DNA of 54,849 nucleotides. Source: an uncultured Mycoplasmatota bacterium. Its GTDB lineage: Bacteria > Bacillota_I > Bacilli_A > RF39 > UBA660. Shown one piece after another: positions 14,636 through 45,930 of the stretch. A model generated the notes under the pieces. It was not told where the DNA came from, ran no database searches, and worked only from the letters and a program-made list of their open reading frames with translations. The stretch's first letter is position 1. Every line of letters starts with the position of its first letter. Location of the stretch: contig CAMKMS010000005.1 in NCBI GenBank assembly GCA_946413985.1, forward strand, positions 1-54,849, in the 5' to 3' direction. The position numbers and the translations under genes are program-made.

Positions 14636-16918
14636 ATGAAGAAAAAATTAATATTTTGTATATTAATAACTTTATTGTGCTTCCTACCTCTATCAGTTAA
14701 AGCTGACTTTGATGCTTATATTAATGATAATTATGTAAATATTAGAAAAAAACCAACTACAGATTCTACTTCACTATTTAAAGTTAACAAAGGAACAGAA
14801 ATAAAAGTAGTTAGTAAAAAACTATATTCTGGAAAAGGATGTTCAAATAAATGGTATAAAATAAAATATAATGATAAAACTTGCTACGTTTGCTCAACAT
14901 ATGTGAGTTTTAAAAGTTCAGCATTTAGTGGAATTAATGTTGTTGATTGGACAGCAAGAGTTGATTCTAATAATACTACTGTTAGAAAAAGTGCAACTAC
15001 TAATTCTGATGCTATTTCAACACTAACTCTTGGAGCAAATGTTGAAATTATTTCAACTGTTACTGCAAAAAATTCTGGATGTTCTACAGATACATGGTAT
15101 AAGATAAAATATTACATTAACAAAACAGGTTATATTTGCTCAAAATATGTTACAAAAAAAGAAAGTATAACTGCAACTGATGAAGAATATGCTCAAGTAT
15201 TAAAAGAAGAAGGATTTCCTGATAGTTATATTCCATATTTAACATACTTGCATAAAAAATATCCAAACTGGTCATTTAAAGCTAAAAATACAAATACTAA
15301 CTTTGCTGATGCTGTTGATGCAGAAGAAGGTTTAAATTATATGCAAACTACAAATAATAATTATAGAACTTCTACTGTACCAGCTGAAGGATCATCTTGG
15401 TATAGGATTAATGCAGGTGTAATTGCATTCTATATGGATCCAAGAAATTGGCTTTCAAGAGAAAGAATATTTATGTTTGAAAAACTAGATTATGCAAATA
15501 ACTACGAAGAAATATATTTAGACTTAGTTAAATCCCTATTTGGAGATGGAGCACTTGGTGATGAAAAATATACTGTACCTATGTGTACATATGGTAAACA
15601 ATATAAGGTAAGTCCTCTTCATATAGGAAGTAGAATAAGACTAGAAGTTGGTAAAAACGGAAGTCATTCAACTGATGGAAAAGAATTTACTTATAAAGGA
15701 AAAACATATAGCGGATATTATAATTTCTTTAATATAGGTGCCTATCCTCAAACTATTGATGGTGTTGAATATTCAGCTATCACAATGGGTCTTGTAAAAG
15801 CTAGAAGAAATGGATGGAATACAATAGAAAAATCAATTGAAGGTGGTGTTCAATTCCTAGCTAATGGTTATATTACTAAAGGTCAAGGAACACTATACTA
15901 TCAAAAATTTAATGTTTCACCTGATTCAGAAGAGTTTTCAACTAAGTACTTACATCAATATATGACAAATATTCAAGCTCCAGCTACAGAAGGAAATCAA
16001 AATTATAATTCATATAAAGAAGCAGAAATATTAAGTAATCCATTTATATTTGAAATACCAGTTTATAATAATATGCCGGATTATACTTCCCTACCTGCTT
16101 CAGGAGATGCAGATAATTCACTTAAATCATTAACTGTTGAAGGCTATTCAATTGAACCAACATTTGATCCAGACGTATTAAATTATGAAGTAAATATTCC
16201 AAGTAATATTGAAAAAGTAAAAGTAAGTGCAGCATCTACATCTAAAAAAGCAAAAGTTGTAGGAACTGGAGAAATCGAAATAAGTGAACAAAATACTATT
16301 GTTACAATCATTGTTACTTCAGAAGTTGGAGAAGAAAATAAATATGTATTAACAATTATAAGAAATGAAAGTGAAAACAATAACAATGATGATAATAATG
16401 GCAATAATAACAATAATGATGATAATAATGGCAATAATAGCAATAATGATAATAATAATCCAGCAGAAGAAATTCCAACTATTACTTATAAATCAATTAA
16501 AGATATATTAAAAGATTCTTCCATTGAAGTATCAAGTACAAATATTACAAATATAAAATATAATGTTAAAGCATCAACCTTATTAAATAAACTTACAAAA
16601 AATGGAGCAAATACAGTTGTAATTAAAGATAAAAATAATAAAAAATTAACTGATAGTGCTTTAGTTGGAACAGGATCAACTATTACAATAACTAGTGGAG
16701 ATGCAACTGAAACATATACATTAATAGTTATTGGGGATACTTCAGGTGATGGAAAAATCACTATGCTTGATTTATTACAAGTATTAAAGCACATAAAAGG
16801 TGATAAAAAATTAAAAGGTGTATATTTTAAATCAGCTGATACATCATTAGATAGTAAAATTACTATGCTTGATTTATTAAAAATACTAAAGCATATAAAA
16901 GGTGATAAAAAACTATAG
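14636..16918 (+). CDS. Secreted SH3/glucosaminidase autolysin with C-terminal dockerin
   Basis: 760 residues. Order: signal peptide (1-23), two bacterial SH3 domains (~24-90 and ~100-175), an endo-beta-N-acetylglucosaminidase domain (LytD/GH73-related, ~185-465) with INAGVIAFYMDPRNWLS and YYNFFNIGAYP, a cadherin-like beta-sandwich domain (~498-575), an Asn/Asp linker (~581-608), an unassigned beta domain, and a dockerin type I module (~700-760). The dockerin has two calcium loops, DTSGDGKIT and DTSLDSKIT, each followed by MLDLL-x-(I/V)LKHIKGDKKL. It should cut peptidoglycan glycan strands and be held at the surface through SH3 and dockerin contacts. The next gene, ten bases on, carries a cohesin-like domain. 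The start has a GGAGGTGTG ribosome site. Confidence 0.85.
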   Translation: MKKKLIFCILITLLCFLPLSVKADFDAYINDNYVNIRKKPTTDSTSLFKVNKGTEIKVVSKKLYSGKGCSNKWYKIKYNDKTCYVCSTYVSFKSSAFSGINVVDWTARVDSNNTTVRKSATTNSDAISTLTLGANVEIISTVTAKNSGCSTDTWYKIKYYINKTGYICSKYVTKKESITATDEEYAQVLKEEGFPDSYIPYLTYLHKKYPNWSFKAKNTNTNFADAVDAEEGLNYMQTTNNNYRTSTVPAEGSSWYRINAGVIAFYMDPRNWLSRERIFMFEKLDYANNYEEIYLDLVKSLFGDGALGDEKYTVPMCTYGKQYKVSPLHIGSRIRLEVGKNGSHSTDGKEFTYKGKTYSGYYNFFNIGAYPQTIDGVEYSAITMGLVKARRNGWNTIEKSIEGGVQFLANGYITKGQGTLYYQKFNVSPDSEEFSTKYLHQYMTNIQAPATEGNQNYNSYKEAEILSNPFIFEIPVYNNMPDYTSLPASGDADNSLKSLTVEGYSIEPTFDPDVLNYEVNIPSNIEKVKVSAASTSKKAKVVGTGEIEISEQNTIVTIIVTSEVGEENKYVLTIIRNESENNNNDDNNGNNNNNDDNNGNNSNNDNNNPAEEIPTITYKSIKDILKDSSIEVSSTNITNIKYNVKASTLLNKLTKNGANTVVIKDKNNKKLTDSALVGTGSTITITSGDATETYTLIVIGDTSGDGKITMLDLLQVLKHIKGDKKLKGVYFKSADTSLDSKITMLDLLKILKHIKGDKKL
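16376..16459 (+). repeat. Asn/Asp/Gly-coding tandem repeat
   Basis: A 30-bp unit encoding NNNNDDNNGN occurs twice and then partly a third time, forming the disordered linker before the C-terminal domains of the autolysin. AAT/GAT-type repeats of this kind can expand or contract in frame. Confidence 0.8.
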
Positions 16919-16928: not shown

Positions 16929-18386
16929 ATGAAAAAAATAATTAAAGGATTATTTATATTATTATTTGGATTATTAATTTCATTTTCTAACACTTCAAAA
17001 ATACTTGCTGCTTCTGCGTCTATAAGTGTTTCATCTTCTTCAAGCAAAGTTGTGATTGGAAATACATTTAAAGTATACTTTAGTGTTTCATCCTCTTCAC
17101 AAATAGGTACTGTAGAATTTACTCCTAGTTATGATAAAAATGTATTAAAACTTGTAAGTGGTGAAACTCATATTTATGATTATAAAATTGCTGGAAGCAA
17201 ATCAAAAACTTATACTTATACTTTTAAAGCAATAAGCAGTGGTTCAACAAAGATAAGTGTTAAGAGCTATGAAATAATTGGATATAATGAAAGTAGATTA
17301 TCAACAAATGTTTATAGCAAAACTATTAGTGTTATTACTCAATCACAATTAGAAGCATCATATTCAAAAAACAATGATTTAAAAAGTTTAAAAATTGAAG
17401 GACTAACTCTTAGTCCTAAATTTGATAAAAATACTCTTAAATACACAACTAATGCTGGCGCAAATACTACTAAAATAAAAATAACAGCAGTAGTAGATGA
17501 TTCTAGATCTAAAGTAAGTGGAACTGGAACAAAAAAAGTTAGTGAGGGAGAAAACGTATTTAAAATAATTGTTACAGCTCAAAATGGAAGTACTAAAACA
17601 TATAAAGTAGTCGTTAATGTAGTAGATCCAAATCCAATTGAAGTAGTAATAAATGATCAAAAATATATAGTTGTTAAAAGAGAATCTAATTTAGAAAAAG
17701 TAAATGATTTTCAAAAGAAAACAATTAAAATAAATGATCAAAGTGTACCTGCCCTATTTAATGAAGAGAACAATATTACTCTTGTCGGTCTTAAAAATAG
17801 CGAAGGTAGTATTGAATACTATATTTATAATAAAGAAGATAATACATATAAAAAATTTAATGATATTACTCTTTCAAAATTAAGAATTTTACCATTAGAT
17901 ATGGATAAAATGATTAATGATTATAAAAAAGAAGTAATTAAAATAGATAATATTGATGTTGAGTCATTAAATATAAATGATCACATATTTATTATTAAAG
18001 CTAAAAATTTTGATACAGCAGAAGACGACTATTACTTTTATGATATAGATAACAATTCTGTAATAAAATATTATGAAAGTGAAAAAAATGATAAACCAAT
18101 TATAGTTAATACAGATGTATCAAATTATAAAAAAATTATATTGCTCCTTGGAATAGAAACAGTTTTCATAATTTTTATACTAATATGTATATTAATTAAG
18201 AAAGTGATTAAAAATAAAAGAAAGAGAGCATATATACAAAGGAAAATAGAAGAAGAAAAAAATCGTATAGAAGAAGTTAACAAATTAAAAGATGAAATTA
18301 AAGAATTAGAAAATAAAAATAAATCTTCTAGAACAAGGAATAAAAAGAAAGAAGTGTCAAAGGATGAAATCAAGAAAAAGAAATAA
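16929..18386 (+). CDS. Membrane-anchored cohesin-like surface protein
   Basis: 485 residues: signal peptide (1-28), a Ser-rich beta domain (~29-135) resembling cohesins (IGTVEFTPSYDKNVLKLVSG, then SGSTKISVKSYEIIG), a cadherin-like beta-sandwich (~145-235) with NDLKSLKIEGLTLSPKFD, an unassigned region (~240-400), one membrane helix (~415-440) and a cytoplasmic, Lys/Glu-rich coiled-coil tail. Its cadherin-like domain is clearly related to that of the preceding autolysin. Adjacent dockerin and cohesin-like modules suggest that this protein docks the autolysin at the membrane. The start follows an AGGAGG site. Its 3' end overlaps the LCP gene by 23 bases. The cohesin call is by pattern and could instead be a generic Ig-like fold. 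Confidence 0.65.
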   Translation: MKKIIKGLFILLFGLLISFSNTSKILAASASISVSSSSSKVVIGNTFKVYFSVSSSSQIGTVEFTPSYDKNVLKLVSGETHIYDYKIAGSKSKTYTYTFKAISSGSTKISVKSYEIIGYNESRLSTNVYSKTISVITQSQLEASYSKNNDLKSLKIEGLTLSPKFDKNTLKYTTNAGANTTKIKITAVVDDSRSKVSGTGTKKVSEGENVFKIIVTAQNGSTKTYKVVVNVVDPNPIEVVINDQKYIVVKRESNLEKVNDFQKKTIKINDQSVPALFNEENNITLVGLKNSEGSIEYYIYNKEDNTYKKFNDITLSKLRILPLDMDKMINDYKKEVIKIDNIDVESLNINDHIFIIKAKNFDTAEDDYYFYDIDNNSVIKYYESEKNDKPIIVNTDVSNYKKIILLLGIETVFIIFILICILIKKVIKNKRKRAYIQRKIEEEKNRIEEVNKLKDEIKELENKNKSSRTRNKKKEVSKDEIKKKK

Positions 18387-24476: not shown

Positions 24477-24992
24477 CTATTCTAAATTTTCAGTACAAGG
24501 ATAATTACTTTCATCTGTATATATTGTTCTTGTTTCACCACTAATTGGTATTTTAACTGTAATATCAATTATTGGTAATTTAAGCGCAATAAAAGTTGTA
24601 ATTTTATAGTGAACATTTGAATTATCAGCATCTGGACCATTAGGACAATATTTTACAACACAATATCCTCCAGTTTTAACATAATTAGTTGATCCATCTT
24701 GAGTACCTTCACACTCAATTCCTTTTGTACCAGAATAATTATACCCAGTATTTTTTATAAGTCTAAAAGCCATTCCTTCAACAGATTTACCTAAACTTTC
24801 ATCATCTAGAGAAAGTAAATCCCTCTCTTCACTAGTAGAATAACCTTCATATTGCTCTATATATGTAATAATATTATTTTTAACATTAAAAGCTTTAGTA
24901 TAACTAATAGAATATGCTAAAAAACCTGAAAAGAAAAATATGAATACAATTACTATTCCAAATAACCAAGCACCACCAATCGATTCTCTCAT
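24477..24992 (-). CDS. TadE-like pseudopilin
   Basis: 171 residues with an N-terminal leader MRESIGGAW followed at once by a hydrophobic helix (~8-30), the typical plan of type IV/Tad pilin-like subunits, then an extracellular domain with four Cys (CEG, YCVVKYC, YPC). The mature domain ends in a beta-rich stretch (LKLPIIDITVKIPISGETRTIY). The leader resembles those of the pilin-like proteins at 25079 and 30191 (M, K/R, E, S/A, ... G). No Glu at position +5 after a cleavage Gly is evident, so processing is uncertain. Context between the Flp-like pilin and TadZ-like genes supports a minor pilin. Confidence 0.68.
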   Translation of the reverse strand: MRESIGGAWLFGIVIVFIFFFSGFLAYSISYTKAFNVKNNIITYIEQYEGYSTSEERDLLSLDDESLGKSVEGMAFRLIKNTGYNYSGTKGIECEGTQDGSTNYVKTGGYCVVKYCPNGPDADNSNVHYKITTFIALKLPIIDITVKIPISGETRTIYTDESNYPCTENLE

Positions 24993-25078: not shown

Positions 25079-25354
25079 TTAATTTCCAGCTGAACAACTA
25101 TTACCTGTATTCAATGAATAAGACTCAGTACCATTAGTACAGCACCAATCACTTGTTTTTGCTTGTCCAGTACCAAAATCAGTATCTGCCATTTGAGTAG
25201 CTCTAAAATCAGGACCATATGCAGTTTCACAGCTTCTAGATGCTAATGTTCTTTGAACCATTGGCCAAACTAGAAAATAGAATACTGCTCCTATTGCAGA
25301 AATTGCAACAAGTGTAATAACTGTCATGTTTAATTCTCCTGTAGCTTCTTTCAT
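25079..25354 (-). CDS. Flp-like major pilin candidate
   Basis: 91 residues: leader MKEATGELNMT, a long hydrophobic helix (~10-31), then a short extracellular part with four Cys (SRSCETAYG, WCCTN, SCSAGN). Size and layout fit Flp/TadE-class pilins. It lies immediately after tadC and has its own promoter (TTGAAT-17-TATAAT) and a strong terminator, the expression pattern expected of a major structural subunit. The ribosome site AAGGAGGA is near-consensus. The Cys-rich tail is unusual for Flp pilins and could give disulfide cross-links or a folded cap. Confidence 0.72.
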   Translation of the reverse strand: MKEATGELNMTVITLVAISAIGAVFYFLVWPMVQRTLASRSCETAYGPDFRATQMADTDFGTGQAKTSDWCCTNGTESYSLNTGNSCSAGN

Positions 25355-25431: not shown

Positions 25432-26256
25432 TTATACACTGCCAAACATTTGTAAAAGAGAGAATAGAATAATAGCCATAACCCCTGCTCCTGTTGCCAT
25501 AAGCATAGTCATAGTTTTCTTTTCCATTTTATCTAATCTTTCTTTATATTTAATATCTCTAGATTTTGCTTGTAAACTTGAAATAGTTCTAGAAAATGTA
25601 ATTAATTGTTCTTGTTTTCTTTCTTGACTTCCAAGACTAAGTCTATATAGAAGTCTCATCATACGCATTGAATCTCTTACAGGATAACGTCTAGCAAAAG
25701 CCATATATGGTTCAATACTTGAGTCTCCTGCATCGATAGAAGATATTAATTCACGAAGACCAGGTTTAAACATCTCTGGTGCTTCTTCTAAACTTCTGGT
25801 AATTGCAACTGGGACTGTATAGTGTTGAATTAATATTTCTAAACTTTTTAAATAATATGGTAATTTTAAATTAATTTCATGTAGATGAACTTTATAATAC
25901 TTTTTAACTTTATTATATCCATCTTTAAACATTAAATACGCAAAACCAAAAGCTATAACTAATTTAATTGCTATATTAATACTTGATACACTAGTAAGTA
26001 GTACTCCAAAAGCAATTACAAATGAAATTATTGCTGTCTTAACTCTTTTATTATACATTTCAGTTACATCTGCTTTTTCACCATATTTACTATTAACATA
26101 GAAATCGTAATCTTCTTCTTTTAATTTTCCAAATAATAATTTATTATCAGAAATAAATTTATTAAAACTAAATGCTCCAATATAATTGAATAATAATACT
26201 AGTATTATTCCAACGATTAAAATTTCAACTCCATTAAACATTAAACTTGATAACAT
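25432..26256 (-). CDS. tadC: Tad pilus inner membrane platform protein TadC-like
   Basis: 274 residues: an N-terminal helix, two helices (~70-105) and a C-terminal helix around a cytoplasmic type II secretion F domain (~125-235) with IEILIQHYTVPVAITRSLEEAP-like helices and RMMRLLYRLSLGSQERKQEQ. This is the smaller TadC partner of TadB. The platform couples the TadA ATPase to pilin extraction. The first base of its start overlaps the stop of tadB. Gene order tadA-tadB-tadC is the canonical one. Confidence 0.85.
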   Translation of the reverse strand: MLSSLMFNGVEILIVGIILVLLFNYIGAFSFNKFISDNKLLFGKLKEEDYDFYVNSKYGEKADVTEMYNKRVKTAIISFVIAFGVLLTSVSSINIAIKLVIAFGFAYLMFKDGYNKVKKYYKVHLHEINLKLPYYLKSLEILIQHYTVPVAITRSLEEAPEMFKPGLRELISSIDAGDSSIEPYMAFARRYPVRDSMRMMRLLYRLSLGSQERKQEQLITFSRTISSLQAKSRDIKYKERLDKMEKKTMTMLMATGAGVMAIILFSLLQMFGSV

Positions 26257-27155
26257 TATTCAGCACCTACATCCTCATGGTAATATATAATTCCTGTTAA
26301 TAGGAAGAATGTATTTATAAGTATTACCCCATGAAGTAATACTACTACATACCATTGTTCAAGTAGTTTTAAGTAACTATCATTTCCAAGTAACAATTGA
26401 ACTAGCAATACTAAAAAATATAGAGCTATACCAAATGAAACAAATTGTTTAAAGAAATTAGTTCTATCAATCCTATCACGATAAACGCTTTCAACTAGCA
26501 TATCTATGTCTTGACTCATTCCTTCTAATGCCTCACCTGAATCTTTAGAACCTTCTTTAGTTATTTGAATAAATAATTGATGCATATTCTTTATAATATA
26601 ATAATCATATTTTTCATTCATAAATCTAATTGCTTCATCAATTGTTCCATTATCATAAGCCATTTGAATCATTTCTTTAATATCACTTAAAAGAGGATCC
26701 TCAAGTACACCAGAGTCTCTTACACCTTCTAGTGATTTAACAAATGATTGAGTCGTATTATATTCCATAATAACATTAGTAGTATAAATTTGAATTTCTT
26801 CAAAAATATATTCACTATATGCTTTTTTACATCTTAGATATGCTAAATATGGAACAAATGCAATTGCGGCAACTGCATATACAATTGACCAAATAATACT
26901 ATAGAAATACAGATAAGCTACAAACGCAGCAACTACTCCAAATAATATTACTTGTCCAATATACTGTTTAGAAGTATATTCTTGCCCTAATTCTTTTGCT
27001 TTCTCCCTAACGACCTTAAATGAATATGGTGCATACCTTTCATAAGTATCGCCTATTGTTTTAGTAATAAACTTATAAGAATTATTTCCTGTATTCTTTC
27101 TATATATATAAACAAATATAAGAATTACAGCAACTACAAATATTTCTATATACAT
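26256..27155 (-). CDS. tadB: Tad pilus inner membrane platform protein TadB-like
   Basis: 299 residues: one N-terminal membrane helix, two adjacent helices (~68-105), a cytoplasmic T2SF domain (~120-235) containing EIQIYTTNVIMEYNTTQSF and GEALEGMSQDIDMLVE, and two C-terminal helices. The T2SF-domain layout and position immediately after the TadA gene identify it. It should form, with TadC, the membrane platform for pilus assembly. Its ribosome site GGAGGTG lies 12 bases after the tadA stop. Confidence 0.87.
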   Translation of the reverse strand: MYIEIFVVAVILIFVYIYRKNTGNNSYKFITKTIGDTYERYAPYSFKVVREKAKELGQEYTSKQYIGQVILFGVVAAFVAYLYFYSIIWSIVYAVAAIAFVPYLAYLRCKKAYSEYIFEEIQIYTTNVIMEYNTTQSFVKSLEGVRDSGVLEDPLLSDIKEMIQMAYDNGTIDEAIRFMNEKYDYYIIKNMHQLFIQITKEGSKDSGEALEGMSQDIDMLVESVYRDRIDRTNFFKQFVSFGIALYFLVLLVQLLLGNDSYLKLLEQWYVVVLLHGVILINTFFLLTGIIYYHEDVGAE

Positions 27156-27167: not shown

Positions 27168-28418
27168 CTATATATCTACTATTTCTAATTCACTATTATT
27201 TTGCTGTGAATTATCTTCATTAACACTTGGTGGATTTAATGCTTCTTCAAGTGTCATTCCATTACTAACAGGAACTTGCGCTACTGTAGTATAATCAGTA
27301 GTTGATGATTCTAATTCATTATTAGTTTCACCTTCAGCTTTAGCTACAATTTCTTCACCTTTTGGAATGAATGGATCTTCTTGCATTACTACACCTTGAC
27401 TGGCTAAGTAATCAATCAAATGAGATGTTGGATTGTTATAAACTTCATGTTCTTGTAAATCTCTTTGATATAAAATATTTGTTTTTGCAACGTTATCCAC
27501 ATCATCCACATAAAATTCACACACTTGTGTTATTTCTCTTTGAAATCTTTCATATTTCTTTGAATAAAAACCTTTAACATGTATTCCAAGTTGAATATAT
27601 CTATGCATACTTTTAACAAATTGATCAATATCCTGGCTTGATTCTAATAGTGAATATAAACGCATTGGAATACTTGATGCCTTATCAGAGTGAATTGTAG
27701 ATAAGATATTGTGTCCTGAAGAAATACTATTTCTTACTGCGGTAACTGCTTCTGCACTACGAACCTCTGATAGTAAAATCCATCTTGGGTTTTGACGCAT
27801 ACAAGCGACTAATACATCTGAATAAGAAGCAATATTATTTGTTTTCATTGCTACAATATCTCTTGTTGGATATATCTTATCAAGGTGAAGTTCCAATGTA
27901 TCTTCTATTGTTATAATTTTTTCATCTTCTTTTATATGACTTGCTAAATACTTTACAAGCTCTGTTTTACCTGAACCAGTTTCTCCACTAACAATAATAT
28001 TGCAGTGTCCTTGAACACAAGTCATCAAAAACTCATGAAGTTTTAATGATACATAATCTTCTTTAATTAATTTTTCTTTATTTAATCTAATCATTGCTGG
28101 TGTTTTCCTAATCAAAACAGCAATTCCATTAGTTGCAATTGAATCATGAACAAAGTTAAGACGTAATTCAGCACTCTCAGCATCCAAAAGTGGATGAGCC
28201 ATATTAAATGTCTTACCCATAACATTTGAACATTGAAAAGCTAATTTTTCCATTACATCATTATTTAAACCTTCAATATGTTCTTGATAAACACCTTTAG
28301 ATAATGATTTAACCCACAATTGACCACCATTAGAATATGAAATATCTGTTATATCATCATTTTCCAAAAGTGGCATTAATAGCCCGAAATCAATTTGTGA
28401 AAATACAATTGCGTCCAT
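27168..28418 (-). CDS. tadA: Tad pilus assembly/secretion ATPase TadA (CpaF family)
   Basis: 416 residues. Walker A is SGETGSGKTE (~144-153), the Asp/His boxes include ITIEDTLELHLDKI, Walker B/Glu is WILLSEVRSAEA, and STIHSDKASSIPMRLY carries the conserved histidine. The N-terminal domain (~1-115) shows DITDISYSNGGQLWV, typical of CpaF. It is a hexameric cytosolic ATPase that drives pilus polymerisation. An unusual C-terminal extension (~350-416) is Glu/Ser/Asn-rich and probably disordered. It follows two CpaB-like genes and precedes tadB-tadC in one operon. Confidence 0.95.
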   Translation of the reverse strand: MDAIVFSQIDFGLLMPLLENDDITDISYSNGGQLWVKSLSKGVYQEHIEGLNNDVMEKLAFQCSNVMGKTFNMAHPLLDAESAELRLNFVHDSIATNGIAVLIRKTPAMIRLNKEKLIKEDYVSLKLHEFLMTCVQGHCNIIVSGETGSGKTELVKYLASHIKEDEKIITIEDTLELHLDKIYPTRDIVAMKTNNIASYSDVLVACMRQNPRWILLSEVRSAEAVTAVRNSISSGHNILSTIHSDKASSIPMRLYSLLESSQDIDQFVKSMHRYIQLGIHVKGFYSKKYERFQREITQVCEFYVDDVDNVAKTNILYQRDLQEHEVYNNPTSHLIDYLASQGVVMQEDPFIPKGEEIVAKAEGETNNELESSTTDYTTVAQVPVSNGMTLEEALNPPSVNEDNSQQNNSELEIVDI

Positions 28419-28459: not shown

Positions 28460-29275
28460 TTATTCTATAACTGTTATACTACTATCTACATTTGTATTCT
28501 CAATTATATCTGATTCTAAATATTGAGAATTTGTATTAATAAATGATAATATTTTTTCATTTCCTAAAGTAGTTTCAGCATTATAATTTGCATTTCTAGG
28601 AACTGGTATGATTGATCCACCTGAAATATAACTAGCTCTTTTAATTATAGAAAACATATCATCTGGTACAGCAAATATTAATGCTGCAGCATTCTTTTGC
28701 TCAGAACTCTTTTTAAATATATGTGCCCCGTTTTCATCTTTAACTGCAAGTACTTCAATACCTTCAATCAAAGGACCAATAAACCAATTTCCTTCTTTTG
28801 AACTACTAGTACTTCTTAAAGTATTTTGATAATATAAATCAATTTTATCTCCTGGATAAATTGAATTTCCAAAAGTACTATCAGCATTTACTTTTAAAGA
28901 AAATATAGTATATCCTTCTTGAATATCAGCCCATGCTGAATCAGGCATCTTATCCCATGTAACAACTGCACTATCATAGAACATTGCTCCTTCTGGGATG
29001 AATGTATTATAGTTTACATATTTACCAATCAAATTTTTTTTATTTGTGATTATATTATTCGTAATCATTGATTGTGCAACTTTTACTGTTGTAAATGATT
29101 CTTCAGTAATTTCTTCTCTTGCTTCTAATTTCTTTGTTGCAATAGGAACATCTACAGCATTAATTGCAGTATTAACTCTATACCTATAAGCAAAAATCAA
29201 TATAGCAAAGCAAGCAACTAAAGATATTATTGTAACGATACTTTTATTATGAAATAATTTACTAAAAAATTTCAT
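28460..29275 (-). CDS. CpaB/SAF-domain pilus protein (second copy)
   Basis: 271 residues: N-terminal membrane helix (~13-30), then a SAF/antifreeze-like domain (~43-110) with VPIATKKLEAREEITEESF and FIPEGAMFYDSAVV, and a C-terminal domain with KINADSTFGNSIYPGDKID-like turns. The mature region aligns end to end with the upstream copy at 29275 (both 271 residues), so they are tandem duplicates that diverged. In diderms CpaB/RcpC works with the secretin and may modify pili; here there is no outer membrane, so the pair may act as an extracellular collar or wall channel. The two genes share one base at the junction. Confidence 0.82.
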   Translation of the reverse strand: MKFFSKLFHNKSIVTIISLVACFAILIFAYRYRVNTAINAVDVPIATKKLEAREEITEESFTTVKVAQSMITNNIITNKKNLIGKYVNYNTFIPEGAMFYDSAVVTWDKMPDSAWADIQEGYTIFSLKVNADSTFGNSIYPGDKIDLYYQNTLRSTSSSKEGNWFIGPLIEGIEVLAVKDENGAHIFKKSSEQKNAAALIFAVPDDMFSIIKRASYISGGSIIPVPRNANYNAETTLGNEKILSFINTNSQYLESDIIENTNVDSSITVIE

Positions 29276-30090
29276 TATTCACTACACCTCCCTGTTTCAG
29301 CTTTATCTAGTTGAAACAATTCATCATTAACTGCATAACTTCTAATATGCTGTTCAATAGTGCTATTTACAATTCTAGTTTCTTTAGGATTTTTTGAATA
29401 ATTTGAATTTCTTTGAACTGGAATTATTTTTCCGCCACTTCTTTCAGCAATCTTTAATAATCTGAATACTCGATTTGGTACAGCAAACAATAAGTGAGCA
29501 GGTGTTTTTGGATCTCCATTAGTCTCAAACACATTATTTCCTTGAGAGTCTGTTACAGATAATACTTGAATACTTTCAATAAATTTTCCAAACCAAACTA
29601 CTGGTTGTTTATTGACAACTTTACTTGTTTCATAATATAAATCTATATAGTTTCCAGGAAAAATTGAATTTCCATATGTAGTTTCTGAATCAACCTTTAA
29701 AGCATATACTGTATAGCAATCTTTAATGTTTTCAAACTCACTACTTGGCATATCATCCCATTCAACAACCATATCATTATAAAACAAACTGTTTTTTGGA
29801 ATAACAGCATCATTTGAAACATATTTTCCAACAATACTGTTTTTATTTACAATCGCATTACCTTTTACAACACCACCTGGTACTTTTTTTATAGCAACCA
29901 TATCGCTTGTAATTAAAGTTCTTGGTCCAATTTCTTTTGTAGCATAAGCGACATTGACTGGATCAGTAGCCTTCTTAATTCTAAAATGATATGCTGCATA
30001 TAATACACCTAAAGATGCTATGATAGCAAGAATTGTAACAGTATTCCTGTTTTTTAAAAATCTTTTAATAGCAATTAAAACACTTCCCAT
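29275..30090 (-). CDS. CpaB/SAF-domain pilus protein (first copy)
   Basis: 271 residues, paralogous to the next gene: membrane helix (~14-33), SAF domain with VNVAYATKEIGPRTLITSDM and AVIPKNSLFYNDMVV, then the C-domain with SETTYGNSIFPGNYIDLYY and RNSNYSKNPKETRIV. It ends in a short Cys-containing tail (TGRCSE) missing in the other copy. It is the first gene of the pilus assembly operon and has a good promoter at 30127-30156 and a GGAGGAAT ribosome site. Length and architecture fit CpaB/RcpC. Confidence 0.83.
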   Translation of the reverse strand: MGSVLIAIKRFLKNRNTVTILAIIASLGVLYAAYHFRIKKATDPVNVAYATKEIGPRTLITSDMVAIKKVPGGVVKGNAIVNKNSIVGKYVSNDAVIPKNSLFYNDMVVEWDDMPSSEFENIKDCYTVYALKVDSETTYGNSIFPGNYIDLYYETSKVVNKQPVVWFGKFIESIQVLSVTDSQGNNVFETNGDPKTPAHLLFAVPNRVFRLLKIAERSGGKIIPVQRNSNYSKNPKETRIVNSTIEQHIRSYAVNDELFQLDKAETGRCSE

Positions 30091-30126: not shown

Positions 30127-30156
30127 ATTATAGCACATATTCAAATTATTTTTCAA
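30127..30156 (-). promoter_or_regulatory. Promoter of the pilus assembly operon
   Basis: On the minus strand TTGAAA (30151-30156), an 18-base spacer and a perfect TATAAT (30127-30132) with an extended TGTGC upstream of it. It should drive cpaB-cpaB-tadA-tadB-tadC. Confidence 0.85.
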
Positions 30157-30166
30157 TATAATAAAA

Positions 30167-30192
30167 AAAATATCTAATAAATTAGATATTTT
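30167..30192 (-). terminator. Terminator after the dockerin-bearing pilin-like gene
   Basis: A perfect 12-bp stem (30167-30178 with 30181-30192) overlaps the stop codon. The 2-base gap means the inner A-T pairs must open to form the loop. A T-rich tract follows on the minus strand. It isolates this gene from the assembly operon promoter just downstream. Confidence 0.75.
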
Positions 30193-31009
30193 AATTTGCT
30201 GGAGTTGCTGTATCAAGTACTTTTTCCATTTGGTCCAAATCACTTAAGTCTACTTTGCCATCATTAGTAACATCAGCAATAACAAATTGTTTAGGTGTTA
30301 AAGCAGTTTTACAATTAGAATTGTTAACACATTTTCTGATTATTTTAACATCTAATTCTGAAAATTCTCCATCTCCATTAACATCTAATGGTACTTCACT
30401 ATATAATGCTTTCTTTAATATAATCAAATCTTTATTATCACAATCTTTATCACCATTTACATTTATTACTGACGCATATTTTCCACAAGCTCCTCCATTA
30501 GTTCTAATGAATTGTTCTATTGAAGTAATATCAGCCTCACTAAAATTACCATCTCCATCATAGTCACCAGTTGATGTTGAATAAATTATATTATACTCTC
30601 CAGTTGATTCTGTTGTTTCTAAAATACCAGTAATAAAAGTATTAATTTCTAAATCAATACTATTATCTTTTATAGTAGTTTCTCCAGTAGTAGTTTTAAT
30701 CCTAATAGTAGCTTTAGGTGGATACTCATATATATCATAAAAATCTAGTTGATATGTTCTATCTGGATTTACACTTTCTGCAAATCTTCTAGTAAATACA
30801 GAAACGAATTTTTCTCTAGACATAACTAGTTTACCAGATTTCATATAAGTTCCATAATCAACAGCATCATACATAGATGCTCTTAGTATTTCTCTACTTA
30901 AATAATAATCTTGCTCATTTGTACTAGTTAAATTTTGCACTAAGAATAATATTACTACTATAAATACTCCTAAAGCAATAATTAAATAGCCCCACATGGA
31001 TTCTTTCAT
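30191..31009 (-). CDS. Pilin-like protein carrying dockerin-type calcium repeats
   Basis: 272 residues: short leader MKESMWG, one hydrophobic helix (~8-25), a beta-rich extracellular domain (~30-140), then four dockerin/EF-like calcium loops at about 148-265: DYDGDGNFSEAD, NVNGDKDCDNKD, DVNGDGEFSELD and DVTNDGKVDLSD, each followed by a helix. That is two dockerin type I modules in series, with extra Cys. The leader plus helix match the other pilin-like proteins of the locus, so this could be a minor or tip pilin presenting a dockerin. The partner cohesin might be the protein at 16929. No other family is evident. Confidence 0.72.
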   Translation of the reverse strand: MKESMWGYLIIALGVFIVVILFLVQNLTSTNEQDYYLSREILRASMYDAVDYGTYMKSGKLVMSREKFVSVFTRRFAESVNPDRTYQLDFYDIYEYPPKATIRIKTTTGETTIKDNSIDLEINTFITGILETTESTGEYNIIYSTSTGDYDGDGNFSEADITSIEQFIRTNGGACGKYASVINVNGDKDCDNKDLIILKKALYSEVPLDVNGDGEFSELDVKIIRKCVNNSNCKTALTPKQFVIADVTNDGKVDLSDLDQMEKVLDTATPAN

Positions 31010-31067: not shown

Positions 31068-31700
31068 TTAAATACCATGTTTAACTTTTCTATATTTATC
31101 ATTAAATAATGAAATAGAAAATATAGTACTAATAACTGCTAAAGCAATTTTAATTCCCCAAGAAGTAATAAATGCTGTAAATTTTGAAGCAAAAGTTTCT
31201 TCTGTCTCTTCTTCTTTTTTATTATCAGTTGATTTTATACTATGATCATAATTATAAATTGCTTTTTCCAAAGTAGACCTAGTAACTTCAGTTGAAGTAA
31301 ATTGTGAAGAACACATAAGTAATTTATTTTCATAACCTTCACATAAACTAGATCCATAGTATTTATTATAATATGGTTCATTTACAATAATTCTTTTTAA
31401 AGAAGAACAATTATCTTTACCATATATATCTATATTAACATTTTCTCCACCTGGTATTTTTTCAATTGTAATTGTATTTTCATCATCTGGCTTATATGTT
31501 ACTTTATTATATTTAGCATACATTCCATCAAATACATTGTAAATCGTTATAGTAAACGAACTAGAACTTTTACTATAATTATTATCATATGTAATATTCT
31601 CTGATAATGTTAGAAACTCTTTATGCTTGTCCTTATCACATTCATCTGCATAAGCAATAAATGGAATTATTAATAAAATAAATAATAATGCTTTTTTCAT
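31068..31700 (-). CDS. Secreted, C-terminally membrane-anchored protein, paralogue of 37662
   Basis: 210 residues: signal peptide (1-18), an extracellular domain with six or so Cys, a membrane helix near 180-200 and a short basic tail. A shared pattern with the protein at 37662 is clear: an N-terminal Cys soon after the signal, VNIDIYG...C..LK, a P-x-[YF]-N segment, LCEGYENKLLMCSSQF, then an E-x-A-I-x-x-Y helix. Both are near the ends of a gene block containing a large Cys-rich secreted protein and a sortase. It overlaps the sortase gene by four bases. Role unknown; it may anchor or chaperone pilus-associated surface proteins. Confidence 0.65.
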   Translation of the reverse strand: MKKALLFILLIIPFIAYADECDKDKHKEFLTLSENITYDNNYSKSSSSFTITIYNVFDGMYAKYNKVTYKPDDENTITIEKIPGGENVNIDIYGKDNCSSLKRIIVNEPYYNKYYGSSLCEGYENKLLMCSSQFTSTEVTRSTLEKAIYNYDHSIKSTDNKKEEETEETFASKFTAFITSWGIKIALAVISTIFSISLFNDKYRKVKHGI

Positions 31701-33349
31701 TCTTTCTCCTTTTTATCTTCCTTCAATAGTACTGCATGGACAACAAGCCTTCTATTATTTCCGCCCGTACATGTTGACATTGTTAATATTTTATCATTAA
31801 CACCAACTTTAGTATTATTTCTAAAAAGGCTTCTTTTAGTAATCATATTAATATATTTTTCTTTTTCACTCTTAGAATTAAATTTAACTTTTAAATAATC
31901 AGTTGTATAATCTACTCTATATACTGAAAATATCTTAAATTTAAAAGTACCTTTTTCAGTTGTTAAAGACACAATTAAATTATCTTCATCTTCTCTCCAA
32001 CTACTATTAGCAGCACTTCTTAGAGTACCAAACATAGTACCATTTAACATACTATGTCCATATATTATAGTATTATCACTTAATTTTTTAATATTATTTC
32101 TATAATCAAAGAATAAAGATCCAATACTTGTCTTTCTTCCATATATATCATATTTTAAATAATAATTATTATCTGAATGTTGTGCAACTGGATAAGATAT
32201 TTTTGTATTTCTAATAATTAAATAACCTTTAATTTCTTTATTTATTTTTTTTAGTTTACTGATTGATGGTGTAAAAGAATATCTATTAGTTATTTCTTTT
32301 TCAGTCAACTTACTTGCATCTTCCATTCCTTCTTCTGTTACTGCCGGAACATATGTTTCTTCCTCTTCGCCCAAATCATCTATTTCATCATTAGAATTTT
32401 CAACAAAACCTATAGCGTCACTTAATATCGAATTTCTCATTTGTTCAACATTTATTTCTTCAATATAATCGTACGATTTAACAATAATTAAAGATACAAC
32501 ACACACATAAATACATAATACAGAAGCAAGCTTTAAATTATTAAAAGTTAGTTGCTTAAATAGATTTGACTTTAAAAAAGAATTTGCATAAATAATTCTA
32601 AATTCACATGTATAACTTTCCTTGCAACTATCACTTAATTTCTTTAACCATTCAAAATTGCTTACAATAAAATCGCCTTTGTCATATCCTTGATGTAAGT
32701 ATATAATAACATTTTTTGATTCATCATTTTTTACATAATTAACTATTGTTTCTATTAAGCTTTTTGAATATGTATATATATGTATAGCTTTTAGATTATA
32801 ATTAATCTTTAAAAAATCTCTTAAATCATCCATTACACCCGGATATTCTTCATTAATTTTTATTATTTTTTTATAATATAACGTATCATAATCAAAAGCA
32901 TCTTGCTGTAACATAAATCTATCACTTATTTTAATATTTTGATTCGTATTAATACTACATCCTTGCATTATAAATTCTTTTTTAACAGCCTTAGGCATAT
33001 AATAACAATATATTTGTTTAATAATATTTAATTCTAATAGTAAATTATAATCTGATAAACTCAAAGATGAATCAAATTCTAATACAACGTTTTCAATTTC
33101 TAATTTTTTTATTAATTCTACAGGATACTTAATAGTTACAAGTTTAATAATCTTTATGGAACTAATTTGAGCATTATGCAATAGTTCAACTATTTGCTTT
33201 ATATGTTTTTTATAATATTTTAAATCATAATAAAGAGAATCTTTATAATAATTATTCTTATTAATAAAGATAGTTTCTTCTTCCATAAGCGTTCTATAGT
33301 CAAACACCAATGTATTATCTATTATTGTTAATACAAAATACTCTTTCAT
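31697..33349 (-). CDS. Class B sortase with large N-terminal cytoplasmic domain
   Basis: 550 residues. The C-terminal ~190 residues are a class B sortase: IKGYLIIRNTKISYPVAQ, IIYGHSM (catalytic His), LTMSTCTGG (catalytic Cys) and NNRRLVVHAV (Arg). A single membrane helix lies near residue 280. The first ~260 residues have no signal peptide and look like an intracellular alpha/beta domain that I cannot assign. Most sortases have only a short tail there. The open frame begins at 33424, but GGAG before the ATG at 33349 sets a start that gives a cleaner domain. It sits between a thioredoxin-like protein and a paralogous anchored protein. No LPXTG or NPQTN substrate is evident in the window. Confidence 0.82.
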   Translation of the reverse strand: MKEYFVLTIIDNTLVFDYRTLMEEETIFINKNNYYKDSLYYDLKYYKKHIKQIVELLHNAQISSIKIIKLVTIKYPVELIKKLEIENVVLEFDSSLSLSDYNLLLELNIIKQIYCYYMPKAVKKEFIMQGCSINTNQNIKISDRFMLQQDAFDYDTLYYKKIIKINEEYPGVMDDLRDFLKINYNLKAIHIYTYSKSLIETIVNYVKNDESKNVIIYLHQGYDKGDFIVSNFEWLKKLSDSCKESYTCEFRIIYANSFLKSNLFKQLTFNNLKLASVLCIYVCVVSLIIVKSYDYIEEINVEQMRNSILSDAIGFVENSNDEIDDLGEEEETYVPAVTEEGMEDASKLTEKEITNRYSFTPSISKLKKINKEIKGYLIIRNTKISYPVAQHSDNNYYLKYDIYGRKTSIGSLFFDYRNNIKKLSDNTIIYGHSMLNGTMFGTLRSAANSSWREDEDNLIVSLTTEKGTFKFKIFSVYRVDYTTDYLKVKFNSKSEKEKYINMITKRSLFRNNTKVGVNDKILTMSTCTGGNNRRLVVHAVLLKEDKKEKE

Positions 33350-33410
33350 TATGTCTCCAATATTATCCATAATAATAATATCATATTTTTTAACAAAAAA
33401 AAATATGAAA

Positions 33411-33938
33411 CTATTCAATTCCATATTTAATTACTATATCTTGTAAAGTTTTATAATCTATCATTTTTTCACTACTATCTTTACAAGCAATCGCTTCACC
33501 ATTATTTATATATATTAATAGTGGTGCTTTATTAATATCTATTGCTATATTTGGAAATTTATTTCTTAACATTCCAATATATTCATTATTTTTTAAGTCT
33601 GTTACATTCCAATAAATTACCTTATCAATTAAATTATTTTTTTCAAGTTCTTTATATAACCTATTTTCCATTCTATCAATTTTTTTATTGCCAGTATAAC
33701 TAACATACATTAAAGCTTCATTTGTCTCAAGTATAGCGAAATTAAAATCATTTATACTTATTTTATTAATAACTCTATTATAGAATATACCACTTTCTAA
33801 TTCATTATTACTATAATTAAAATACAAAGCTCTTAAATAAAGAGATAAAGCAATTATAACGACTGATACTCCTAAAACAATATAATAATTCTTTGGAGGT
33901 ATTTTTTTATCTTCGATTTTTTTAAATATTTTTTTCAT
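33411..33938 (-). CDS. Membrane-anchored thioredoxin-like protein lacking CXXC
   Basis: 175 residues: cytoplasmic basic N-terminus, one membrane helix (~19-37) and an extracellular alpha/beta domain (~55-175). Strand-helix order and the APLLIYINNG segment (cis-Pro-like position) resemble thioredoxin fold proteins, but the redox CXXC is replaced by SYTGNKKI, so it cannot be a normal thiol oxidase. The only Cys is in AIACKDS. It lies 61 bases upstream of the sortase gene in a Cys-rich surface locus, hinting at a binding or folding role. The thioredoxin assignment is by fold pattern only. Confidence 0.55.
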   Translation of the reverse strand: MKKIFKKIEDKKIPPKNYYIVLGVSVVIIALSLYLRALYFNYSNNELESGIFYNRVINKISINDFNFAILETNEALMYVSYTGNKKIDRMENRLYKELEKNNLIDKVIYWNVTDLKNNEYIGMLRNKFPNIAIDINKAPLLIYINNGEAIACKDSSEKMIDYKTLQDIVIKYGIE

Positions 33939-33997: not shown

Positions 33998-34023
33998 AAG
34001 AGAAAGAATTAAATCTTTCTCTT
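33998..34023 (-). terminator. Terminator of the Cys-rich protein gene
   Basis: A perfect 10-bp stem (33998-34007 with 34014-34023) around a 6-base loop overlaps the stop codon. On the minus strand it is followed by a T-run. Confidence 0.85.
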
Positions 34024-37000
34024 ATTTTTTATTATCTGCATTAACATTACCATAATATCCAGTTGCATACTCAGAAGAGTTTCCTCTTAGAATATCTAAG
34101 AAATAACTATGGCAATTATAATAATATCCATCTTCTGAATCCTTTTCACAATTGTATATTAATTCATCAGAATAACTACCATTAAGAGCATTAAACTCTT
34201 TAATATTTTTTGTTTGTGTTGGATTTATTGTTACACTAAAATCTAAATATTCATTATCAGTACTATATTTATTAGAATTTGCTTCAATAAATTCTTTTAT
34301 AATTAATCCTTTAGCAGTACTCCAGTTTGATTTTTCTTTTACTCCTGAAGGGAATAAATTTGCTGGATCAACATTTCTATATAAAGCTGCTGATTTTTCT
34401 TCACATGTAGGTTTAGATGGATCATCACAATTAGGTTTTTTAACATCAACATAACATGTAAATGTATTATTCTCATTTATTGTTAATTTTCCAGCAGTTT
34501 CATTTCTATAGAAAGACAATGGATTTAGAACTTGTGAAACTACGCATCTATGATATACGCCATTTTCAAGAGAAGTTCTACATGCATCTAAATTATATGC
34601 ATTTTTATCAATTGGATAAGAGAAGCTTGGTAATGTCAATAAGCTAGAATTAGTATTTCCAGGTACTACTTTTCCACTTCCATAATCTGCTTGATATTTA
34701 TTATTGTTATAATAATTAATTTCTGATGTAACTGTAAATCTTGCATAATCATTTGTTGGAACATCTATATTCTTACCACCAAATAATGTATATGTTTTCT
34801 TTGATGCTGGTCTATTAGCTGGATAATTATATGATGCTGCATCATTATTAGAATCATATCCATAACACAAGTTACCACTTTTATCTTTACAATAACTTAT
34901 TGAAGATAGCTTACCAGTAAATACAGATGTATTACTTACATTATTTATTCGATTATTATTATCTTTATTTATTGCACCAAATTCATATTTAACATTATAT
35001 GCGTGAGTCTGAGCAGTTTTATTTCCTTCTCTATCAGAACCCAAACCATAATTATTGCTTTCTTTATATATATTCTTAACTTTACTTATTAAAGTTGTTT
35101 TATAATTCTTAGGTATTTCTACCCCAGCATCTTTGATAGTCTTTTCACTATAGAAGTTACAATTATATATATCATATATGATTTGATTTAATACTTCTTC
35201 TCTTTCATTTTCTGAAGAATATTTTTCTTTTAATACATTAAATAATCCTGCGAATGTTTTACTTTGTTTTAGTTTTGCAAATTCTTCATCTGTTAGACCA
35301 TAATCAGTCTTAAAGTCATCTAGATTATATAAATGACTATAATATATTTCAGATAAACATGTTCTCTTCTCTTTAACTACACTAGTCAATTTATAATTCA
35401 ATTCTTTTGTATTCTTTGCAGGGAATTCTATATCATACATAAATGTTCTTCCTGATATTGCTTTAACTTTATCAGCAAGTACATATTCTGCTTCATCACT
35501 ACAATAAACTCTACAGAAGTTAGTATTTACTCCAAAATAGCTACTATAATCATATCTATTTTTAGCAGAAGGCTCTTCTAAATTAACAATACATTTTAAT
35601 GATGGATCTTTTACTTTTGTACTATATATACCATTATAGTTATTTTGATCATTTTCACATGAATCTTTTCCTTCTATTCTTAAACTAGCATCATTACATC
35701 CACCATCACATTTATAATTTGTTACTGAGAATGTTGTTACTGCTTCGTCTCTTCCAACTTCTGTTGCCTCTCCTAAACCACTATCTGAATCATCATCATC
35801 TTTAAAGAATGCGAATAATGTTTGATTAACATTTGCATTTGCACATGAATAGTATTTTCTAACACTATAACTACTCTTTTCTCTTTGATATTTAACTTTT
35901 ATTTCAATATCTTTTCCACTATTATTCATAATATCACAAATTGCAAATTTAAATGTTGTAGTTCTACATCCAAAATGCTTAATACATTTCTTAATATCTT
36001 GTTCATCTACAATAACATTTCCATCTTCATCTGTAACAGTTACTTTTACTTGACAATAAGGTTTAATTTGATTAATTATAGCATCTGCTTCACTAGCAGT
36101 TTTACCTTCTCTAATTAATTTAGTTCTTAATTCAGCTAATTTAGCATCACTACACTCAACTTCTTCATCTTTGATTTCATCCCAGAACTCTTCATGTTCA
36201 AATGTAACTTCTACCCATGTTTCTACTGAAGAAGATGAAGTTGATTCTTCAAAACTATATTCACTTTGTAATGTTGCTGCTGTTGGTTTTGAACCATTAC
36301 CTCCACCATACAACTTACTCAAGTGATTTTTCATATATTGATTTCCAATTAAAGTATTAAAGTAAAGTTCAAATGCCACTCTGTAATCAGCATTTGGTTC
36401 AGTGCCACACATAACACCTCTCATCTTTTTAACTTTAGTCATATTACGTAACTCTGAAGTTGTTAAACATGCAATTGCTTCAAATGTATTACCATTTAAT
36501 TCTCCTCTTGTATTTCCATTTTCTTCAGGAGGAATATGATCCATTAGTCTTGCTACATCATAAAATTTATCTTTTGCTACAACCATTATATAATCATGAG
36601 TTTGTTTATAAACATTAACATAATCATTATTTTCATCAGTTGTAAAATATGTTACAGTCTTACAATCCTCACCAGTTAAATTAGCAACACCAGTTTTATC
36701 AAATCCAGTTTGACCTGAATGAACACTCCAAAGTCTTAAAGCAGTGTTAATTGCCTTATCACTTGTATTATAATAAGCTCCTTCAATTAATATATTTGCG
36801 TATCCACAATCTACTGTACTATAACTACTTGCACAGTCAAATACATTGAATGAATCATCATATTGATAGTTATCAGATTCACCATTTTGATAAAATGGTT
36901 GACTTGGGTTAACACAATAAGCTGGTTGACCTGCTATATCAAAATCTGGTGTACAAAGTGAAAAGTTTTTATAAGTTCTATCACATATATATAAAGGACA

Positions 37001-37657
37001 TTGTAATGTATAATCTGCAGTACATGTTCCATTTCCAAAATCAGCTTTTGCTTCTGCAACTACATCTTGACCTGCTGTAACTGGATCATAATTATATTCT
37101 TTTGTTCTTGTACAGGTAGTACTTGAAGATAAACGTCCACTTGGACTAAAGCCATCAGGACAAGTGTAATAATTATATCCATTATTTCCACCACAAGAGC
37201 CCGGAGTACTTTCATCTCCTGCATTCCAACTACAACCACCAGTACACTCACTTTGACTCTTAGATGAACAATCATTAGCTTTATAATGATGAGTTGATGT
37301 TACAGTTTCAACACAAGTCACCTTAGCAGTTACTTTTCTTTCTGGATCTTTACACAAAGGTACTTTTTGACCTACAAGGCTTTTTGCATCTAAACTCTCA
37401 ACATAATGAATTACAAGAGAATCTCCAGCAGCTAATGCAGCATCATAAGAACTATATCCACTATGAGGTCTATAACCTTCAGCTCTTCTCCACTTACAAA
37501 CTGGTAATGTTGCATCAAATCCGGCATCTGTAATTCCTGTCTCAGTAATAGTAACCTCTTCATCATCTGAATTACATCTTAATGAAGCGTTAACATTACT
37601 TGTAAAAACAAATAATAAAGCTAGGGAAATTAATACTTTTAAAGTCTTCTTATTCAT
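34022..37657 (-). CDS. Giant Cys-rich secreted surface protein
   Basis: 1211 residues with a signal peptide (1-24) and dozens of Cys spread over the whole length; no LPXTG, membrane anchor or wall-binding repeat at the C-terminus. Near residue 245 AYCVNPSQPFY, followed ~60 residues later by INTALRLWSVHSG, resembles a thioester adhesin domain (TED) layout, but the expected Gln of the thioester bond is not obvious, so I do not call it TED. Other parts read as beta-sandwich-like modules separated by Cys-x-Cys motifs. It is co-transcribed with the anchored protein at 37662 (four-base gap) and next to sortase and pilus genes, so it is a candidate adhesin or pilus-associated surface subunit. Confidence 0.7.
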   Translation of the reverse strand: MNKKTLKVLISLALLFVFTSNVNASLRCNSDDEEVTITETGITDAGFDATLPVCKWRRAEGYRPHSGYSSYDAALAAGDSLVIHYVESLDAKSLVGQKVPLCKDPERKVTAKVTCVETVTSTHHYKANDCSSKSQSECTGGCSWNAGDESTPGSCGGNNGYNYYTCPDGFSPSGRLSSSTTCTRTKEYNYDPVTAGQDVVAEAKADFGNGTCTADYTLQCPLYICDRTYKNFSLCTPDFDIAGQPAYCVNPSQPFYQNGESDNYQYDDSFNVFDCASSYSTVDCGYANILIEGAYYNTSDKAINTALRLWSVHSGQTGFDKTGVANLTGEDCKTVTYFTTDENNDYVNVYKQTHDYIMVVAKDKFYDVARLMDHIPPEENGNTRGELNGNTFEAIACLTTSELRNMTKVKKMRGVMCGTEPNADYRVAFELYFNTLIGNQYMKNHLSKLYGGGNGSKPTAATLQSEYSFEESTSSSSVETWVEVTFEHEEFWDEIKDEEVECSDAKLAELRTKLIREGKTASEADAIINQIKPYCQVKVTVTDEDGNVIVDEQDIKKCIKHFGCRTTTFKFAICDIMNNSGKDIEIKVKYQREKSSYSVRKYYSCANANVNQTLFAFFKDDDDSDSGLGEATEVGRDEAVTTFSVTNYKCDGGCNDASLRIEGKDSCENDQNNYNGIYSTKVKDPSLKCIVNLEEPSAKNRYDYSSYFGVNTNFCRVYCSDEAEYVLADKVKAISGRTFMYDIEFPAKNTKELNYKLTSVVKEKRTCLSEIYYSHLYNLDDFKTDYGLTDEEFAKLKQSKTFAGLFNVLKEKYSSENEREEVLNQIIYDIYNCNFYSEKTIKDAGVEIPKNYKTTLISKVKNIYKESNNYGLGSDREGNKTAQTHAYNVKYEFGAINKDNNNRINNVSNTSVFTGKLSSISYCKDKSGNLCYGYDSNNDAASYNYPANRPASKKTYTLFGGKNIDVPTNDYARFTVTSEINYYNNNKYQADYGSGKVVPGNTNSSLLTLPSFSYPIDKNAYNLDACRTSLENGVYHRCVVSQVLNPLSFYRNETAGKLTINENNTFTCYVDVKKPNCDDPSKPTCEEKSAALYRNVDPANLFPSGVKEKSNWSTAKGLIIKEFIEANSNKYSTDNEYLDFSVTINPTQTKNIKEFNALNGSYSDELIYNCEKDSEDGYYYNCHSYFLDILRGNSSEYATGYYGNVNADNKK

Positions 37658-45160: not shown

Positions 45161-45172
45161 AAAAAGTTATAA
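45145..45172 (+). repeat. Predicted attL
   Basis: Core AACTGC followed by AGATAGTT, seven A, GTTATAA. The arm from GC inward (45149-45172) is the reverse complement of 47249-47272 except for one base. The left side is original gene sequence, the right side element sequence. Confidence 0.8.
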
Positions 45173-45199
45173 AAAAAATTGTTAAAAAACAATTTTTTT
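45172..45199 (-). terminator. Terminator of the WXG100-like genes
   Basis: A 12-bp stem of AAAAAAATTGTT and its complement (45172-45183 with 45188-45199), AAAA loop, followed on the minus strand by TTATAACTTTTTTT. It overlaps the stop of the gene at 45198 and touches the attL arm. Confidence 0.75.
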
Positions 45200-45524: not shown

Positions 45525-45536
45525 ATTATTTCCTCC

Positions 45537-45839: not shown

Positions 45840-45930
45840 AATTTCCTCCTATAATCTAAACTAATTGTATCATAATAATTATTACTAGTAAATAAAAATG
45901 GCAACTACTAAGTAAAGAAAAAGTAAAGTT

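Follow-up and report, generated by a model that had tools for sequence, protein, structure and literature searches.

The closest described system to the locus analysed here is a Tad pilus. In Myxococcus xanthus, the Kil pilus carries interchangeable minor-pilin tips (the TadEFG-like KilLMN) that expose variable C-terminal domains, which have been proposed to customise the pilus (PMC12075869). The domain DUF5411, by comparison, was placed beside CpaF and a GspF-like protein in a predicted secretion operon, in the description of which it figures only as an uncharacterised domain (Nat Commun 2022, PMC9523054). Tandem dockerins have been described on a cellulosome-linked protease of C. thermocellum, Clo1313_0689, which carries a double dockerin (8x39; reviewed in PMC12484212). 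Finally, the peptidoglycan hydrolase LytF of S. sanguinis aids extrusion of the competence pilus (PMC13192262). No dockerin-bearing pilin was found by title or abstract among open-licence papers, in agreement with the statement in the initial annotation of this DNA that no characterised pilin presents dockerins.

The window, i.e. the whole stretch of 54,849 nucleotides of an uncultured Mycoplasmatota bacterium that was analysed, contains a gene at 30191–31009 (minus strand) for a pilin-like subunit in which a DUF5411 core is followed by dockerins. The reading frame is intact, starts with ATG and encodes 272 residues. Residues 1–133 (30611–31009, minus strand) match DUF5411 in Pfam (E = 6.3e-49, 165.8 bits), and the rest of the protein matches Dockerin_1 over two stretches (49.4 bits, with the cut-off at 22.9; E = 5.1e-13). 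The first residues of the calcium loops are 149, 183, 209 and 246, and these four loops make up two dockerins. Dockerin 1 encompasses approximately residues 147–203 (30401–30571, minus strand; loops at 149 and 183; phmmer match to 2vn5_B, E = 3e-4), and dockerin 2 approximately residues 207–268 (30206–30391, minus strand; loops at 209 and 246; detected by Pfam). As in type I dockerins, the tail consists of paired calcium loop–helix repeats with Asp or Asn ligands at positions 1, 3, 5, 9 and 12.

An AlphaFold2 model of the protein was built from a 51-sequence alignment and had a mean pLDDT of 84.4, with values mostly between 82 and 95 in the dockerin part. The predicted order is a long hydrophobic helix (residues 3–48), two short helices, a three-stranded sheet and the dockerin helices, with a poorly predicted linker at approximately residues 134–143 between core and dockerins. 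When the model was compared with solved structures using VIA-align, residues 205–270 matched 1ohz_B (Z 10.4, rmsd 1.5 Å over 56 residues) and residues 144–204 the dockerin of C. perfringens NagH, 2ozn_B (Z 6.8), so that both modules of the tail adopt a dockerin fold in the predicted model. The two dockerins with four calcium-loop repeats that the initial annotation had read from the letters were thus borne out by the Pfam matches, the loop positions and the model, structure prediction having been named there beforehand as a check.

Dockerin tails are present in five species of the window's genus, with two dockerins in the window's species and in G393, and three in G390, G395 and G391. In a tree computed from the core only, the five dockerin-tailed proteins form one group (support 84/86, 81% of bootstrap trees), consistent with one gain, and this clustering was matched in 0 of 500 shuffles. 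Outside the genus, no dockerin-tailed DUF5411 was seen among the full-length matches listed from 385 genomes of the order. The dockerin tails are therefore inherited within a single clade. Simple NG86 estimates of dN/dS for two close pairs were approximately 0.48 and 0.40 in the tail, compared with 0.08 and 0.13 in the core, so the tail is under purifying selection that is weaker than that on the core. Chance or an assembly artefact as the origin of the tail was dropped, since a homologous tail in five species is neither; a chimeric MAG as the source of the gene was likewise considered and dropped. Cysteines 175, 190, 227 and 233 of the tail are common to both two-dockerin species and could form disulfides; as a set, they are missing from the three-dockerin species.

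DUF5411 itself was detected in 315 of the 385 genomes of the order, approximately four in five, and is usually bare, with a length of ~135–150 residues. Clear matches are almost confined to the source family in a sample of 392 genomes from the phylum, and weak relatives occur elsewhere in the sampled class. Frames of at least 200 residues numbered about 29 among the ~160 DUF5411 matches listed. Scanning of the tails of 32 extended proteins yielded M15/VanY-type peptidases (nine), C39_2 (three), M23 (one) and a Flg_new repeat (one), and most of the remaining tails belonged to no clear family. Members of the genus devoid of dockerins terminate either without any tail or in a C39-like peptidase, in repeats or in tails of no clear family. 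Since non-homologous tails are attached at one and the same point of the protein in different species, the C-terminus of DUF5411 is, judging from the sequences, an exchangeable display site, with dockerins as one cargo. This alternation of unrelated tails had escaped the initial annotation, whose interpretation, taken whole, is partly supported.

Pairs of DUF5411 genes ~4–8 kb apart on one contig were observed at L098 (8001–8441 and 13462–13902), L101 (1717–2157 and 9117–9557), L105 and L145. Several of these have identical scores, each gene adjoins a large surface protein, and such tandem cassettes could allow recombination. At L145, from genome G392, a bare 138-residue DUF5411 protein is accompanied by a closely related copy (3–722) with what by eye is a Flg_new-like repeat tail, suggestive of a recent gain or loss of the tail.

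The dockerin-tailed gene heads a Tad-like pilus operon on the minus strand. It is followed by two genes for CpaB/RcpC-like proteins, the first of which (29275–30090) scores 25.9 bits against PF16976, just under the cut-off, and is conserved beside DUF5411, and the second of which (28460–29275) scores 34 bits, over the cut-off. Thereafter come a CpaF/TadA-type secretion ATPase (27168–28418; PF00437, E = 4.6e-29, with matches to the TadA/VirB11 family), two conserved membrane proteins that take the TadB (26256–27155) and TadC (25432–26256) positions, names given by position only because neither has a Pfam match, and two small pilin-like proteins recognised by their leaders, MKEATG followed by EL (25079–25354) and MRESIG followed by GA (24477–24992). 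CpaF and RcpC by Pfam, TadB and TadC by position only, and the small pilins thus compose a Tad machine within one operon. Upstream, also on the minus strand, lie genes for a secreted, membrane-anchored protein of 210 residues (31068–31700), conserved in the four other dockerin-tailed species, a sortase with an N-terminal extension (31697–33424; PF04203, E = 1.3e-13) and a secreted, Cys-rich protein of 1211 residues with no Pfam match (34022–37657), along with a DUF6568 protein and a 218-residue protein. The order large upstream protein, DUF5411, CpaB, CpaF, TadB/C-like proteins and small pilins is conserved in most of the related loci compared, and some extra DUF5411 copies are found outside Tad genes, adjoining a large secreted or surface protein. 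In most loci, the gene immediately preceding DUF5411 encodes such a large protein, which makes the Cys-rich protein a candidate partner.

Some further features of the region were recorded. In the closest relative (L091), a multi-spanning membrane protein of 845 residues (8895–11432), missing from the window, is encoded between DUF5411 and CpaB. Just past the DUF5411 stop codon (window 30150–30195), the minus strand has an AT-only palindrome followed by T, and a promoter-like site precedes CpaB; together, they may split the transcription unit. The promoter scan gave a signal hardly over that of shuffled sequences. Elsewhere in the window, two small adjoining frames of ~100 residues (45198–45839) look by eye like secreted proteins of the WXG100/ESX type, and a 144-residue frame that looks like the N-terminal part of an ABC-transporter substrate-binding protein is found near a serine recombinase (45931–47142), perhaps as an insertion scar (44726–47142).

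The leader of DUF5411 reads M-[KR]-E-S-x-W-[G/A] followed by Y, which in the window protein is MKESMWG, and has no Glu at +5. Of the 96 distinct DUF5411 proteins compared, 94 have Trp at residue 6; in these 94, residue 2 is Lys or Arg in 92, residue 7 is Gly in 77, Ala in 11 and Thr in six (Gly or Ala in 88/94, so that Gly is not invariant), and residue 8 is always aromatic (94/94). A short charged leader ending in Gly or Ala is thus followed by an aromatic residue and the hydrophobic helix 3–48, as in pilins, and the helix and three-stranded sheet constitute a pilin-like topology in the AlphaFold2 prediction. The pattern M[KR]E[SA]xxG is common to DUF5411 and the two small operon proteins, which start with MKEATG followed by EL and MRE[SA]IG followed by G or A, and only the first ~20 residues or columns of DUF5411 and the sibling pilin-like family were aligned by hhalign. 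A prepilin peptidase gene is present in 18 of 18 genomes of the genus, and the window's own genome has a single one, which encodes 255 residues and is apparently full length.

Against a canonical pilin, the Glu at +5 that characterises type IV and Tad pilins is found at that place in none of the 51 aligned DUF5411 sequences. Some tip pseudopilins, such as GspK, also lack Glu+5, so that its absence would fit a place at the tip. Among the same 51 members, Pfam returned no match to a pilin family (TadE/F/G, Flp or others), no solved pilin in the PDB matched DUF5411 by sequence, and a fold search with the whole 272-residue model retrieved no pilin among its structural matches. Leader, predicted fold and context thus support DUF5411 being a pilin, whereas homology to known pilin families lends no support. 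We use the term pilin-like subunit because leader, topology and peptidase speak for a pilin, and homology, Glu+5 and fold matches against one. The pilin-type leader proposed initially is reasonable as regards the charged leader, the aromatic residue 8 and the hydrophobic helix, but is not canonical, as Glu+5 is missing.

The window further encodes, on the plus strand and ~14 kb from the pilin-like gene, a cohesin and a second dockerin protein. The latter is a glucosaminidase with SH3, cadherin-like and C-terminal dockerin domains (14636–16918, dockerin at 16733–16897; PDB autolysin matches, E = 8e-12), and its gene lies directly upstream of that for a membrane-anchored protein of 485 residues (16929–18386), which has a cohesin domain (17007–17378) and ends in a membrane helix and a basic tail. 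Against PF00963, the cohesin domain scored 19.4 bits, below the cut-off, which some orthologs of the genus exceed. Its model (pLDDT 92.4) best matched cohesins (2jh2, Z 13.3, rmsd 2.2 over 110 residues; Foldseek E = 1.7e-6), with some non-cohesin sandwich folds also matching at Z >11, and its profile retrieved only cohesins from the PDB, at a borderline E of 0.012. The protein is accordingly predicted to carry a true cohesin fold, with the adjoining dockerin as its partner, and the cohesin-like protein noted in the window at the outset is confirmed by these fold matches.

Nearly all genomes of the genus contain this adjoining pair, irrespective of whether the pilin-like subunit bears dockerins, and it lies 13–17 kb from the gene for that subunit in most genomes of the genus with both on one contig. 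A profile search of the five dockerin-tailed genomes, several of which are incomplete (the window's own is at 77%), retrieved no second convincing copy of the window cohesin. In the sister species G397, contig C42 (L110) encodes a stronger cohesin (51 bits) alongside dockerin proteins, and G399, G400, G397 and G398 have frames of 2400–3050 residues with both cohesin and dockerin matches, which are possible community partners.

The two kinds of dockerin were compared at positions (e.g. 10–11 and 17–18) that we took as the recognition positions of type I dockerins. In the glucosaminidase dockerin, residues 10–11 are identical in both repeats within every species (ML, MV, SL or IL), and residues 17–18 are [LQ]K, except for RK in one G394 repeat. 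The pilin dockerins have EA, NK, EL, LS and EQ, KK, RK, EK at 10–11 and 17–18, which vary by repeat and species. Between the window and G393, 10/32 recognition positions are kept in the pilin dockerins, compared with 13/16 in the glucosaminidase dockerin. Pooled over two species pairs, identity in the pilin tail amounts to 39/50 at calcium positions, 34/80 at recognition positions and 111/188 in the remainder; calcium and recognition positions differ at p = 1e-4, and the deficit of recognition positions relative to the remaining tail has p = 0.006 in one pair and 0.39 in the other. The pilin dockerins thus keep their calcium ligands and do not have the symmetric cohesin-recognition signature of the glucosaminidase dockerin.

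On this evidence, we favour with moderate confidence a reading in which the 272-residue protein serves as a minor pilin-like subunit of a Tad-like pilus, probably at its tip. The C-terminus of the subunit would be an exchangeable display position, which in this clade of five species carries two or three tandem, calcium-loaded dockerins. The short leader would be cut by the single prepilin peptidase of the genome, and the DUF5411 helix would pack alongside the two small sibling pilins within the pilus, the missing Glu+5 fitting an initiating or tip subunit. The tail would then be pushed outside the wall, where calcium would stiffen the dockerins so that they form a head for binding. Its partner would probably not be the membrane cohesin of the window, which would serve the neighbouring glucosaminidase. 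Candidates are a different protein of cohesin type, which could belong to another cell, and the large upstream-encoded Cys-rich protein.

The rival explanations concern either the anchor or its tail. DUF5411 could be no pilin at all but a membrane-anchored accessory of a Tad-like machine that keeps the tails within the wall or close to the membrane, in keeping with its lack of homology to pilins, with a leader whose Gly is not invariant and which has no Glu+5, and with the extra copies that adjoin large surface proteins outside Tad operons; wall-active tails, moreover, would act at the wall. The leader shared with the two small operon proteins, the predicted topology and the prepilin peptidase of every genome in the genus make this rather unlikely. 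A possible though doubtful reading of the tail is that the repeats have no protein partner and act only as a spacer or cap, stabilised by calcium, by which the subunit is stiffened or locked. The calcium ligand positions are indeed the best kept of the tail and the recognition positions the least, the number of dockerins varies between two and three, and DUF5411 has no tail in most species. The excess change at recognition positions is clear in one pair only, however, and many sister tails can be assigned to enzyme families, as would suit cargo better than a spacer. To our knowledge, partnerless dockerins have rarely been described, which also counts against a spacer.

The initial annotation had brought the window cohesin into play. 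In a reading built on this cohesin, the dockerins would dock on it and so tether the subunit, or the base of the pilus, to the cell or the complex of the glucosaminidase. Both folds appear genuine, the genes are near each other in most genomes of the genus with both on one contig, and each of the five dockerin-tailed species has one convincing copy of this cohesin. The glucosaminidase dockerin, however, adjoins the cohesin and is symmetric at 10–11 (ML/ML, SL/SL, IL/IL), which the pilin dockerins are not, its recognition positions are better kept between the window and G393, and the linkage of cohesin and pilin is also found in species that have no dockerins on the pilin. Because the cohesin is paired genus-wide with the glucosaminidase and the signature is missing from the pilin dockerins, docking between them is unlikely from the sequence comparison, and we consider tethering of this kind quite improbable. 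It was dropped as the main explanation, another partner or a calcium-stiffened head being more likely. The missing signature would argue against this cohesin only, and not against others. Of the original idea, a pilus displaying dockerins remains plausible in general, given the Tad-like operon, the true dockerins and the retained calcium loops, and the window cohesin as its target is unlikely. A more far-reaching version of the favoured reading, which we regard as speculative and unlikely, is that the Tad pilus has a universal mount for tools. The tail of a DUF5411 tip would be swapped in evolution among wall-lytic enzymes, adhesive repeats and dockerins, and in this clade the dockerins would capture proteins with cohesins, either from nearby gut bacteria or from the own community.

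The exchangeable DUF5411 tail is a more important result than the presence of dockerins or the idea of local docking. If the favoured reading is correct, a hitherto uncharacterised family, carried by approximately four of five sampled genomes of this large uncultured gut order, would gain a role as a pilus subunit carrying swappable outer domains, the peptidase tails would suggest how the pilus crosses its own wall, and dockerins would move beyond enzyme complexes onto a pilus. The neighbouring pair of cohesin and glucosaminidase-dockerin provides an internal control for dockerin specificity.

The comparison with the described systems can be specified as follows. The predicted secretion operon likewise places DUF5411 next to CpaF and a GspF-like protein, and the passages on the domain there mention neither tails nor dockerins. 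With Clo1313_0689, the window protein shares tandem dockerins, and 8x39 matches its dockerin 2 at Z 10.1, but here they sit on a pilin-like anchor instead of a cellulosome-linked protease. The non-cellulosomal modules of C. perfringens NagJ and NagH (2ozn; 2jh2) rank near the top of the fold matches for both the window cohesin and dockerin 1; unlike the window protein, they belong to secreted glycosidases and have no pilus. LytF, as a wall hydrolase that helps a type IV pilus to cross the wall, illustrates a possible role for the enzyme-tailed relatives of DUF5411, although it is a separate secreted enzyme and their enzymes are fused to the pilin-like subunit. The Kil pilus differs in that DUF5411 has no detectable TadE/F/G homology, derives from uncultured gut Bacilli and carries, by sequence, dockerin or wall-type peptidase tails. 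It shares the Tad-type machine and the variable C-terminal domains on minor subunits, and appears by analogy to be the closest known system. If the favoured reading holds, the idea of an adaptable tip would extend from predatory myxobacteria to gut Bacilli with reduced genomes.
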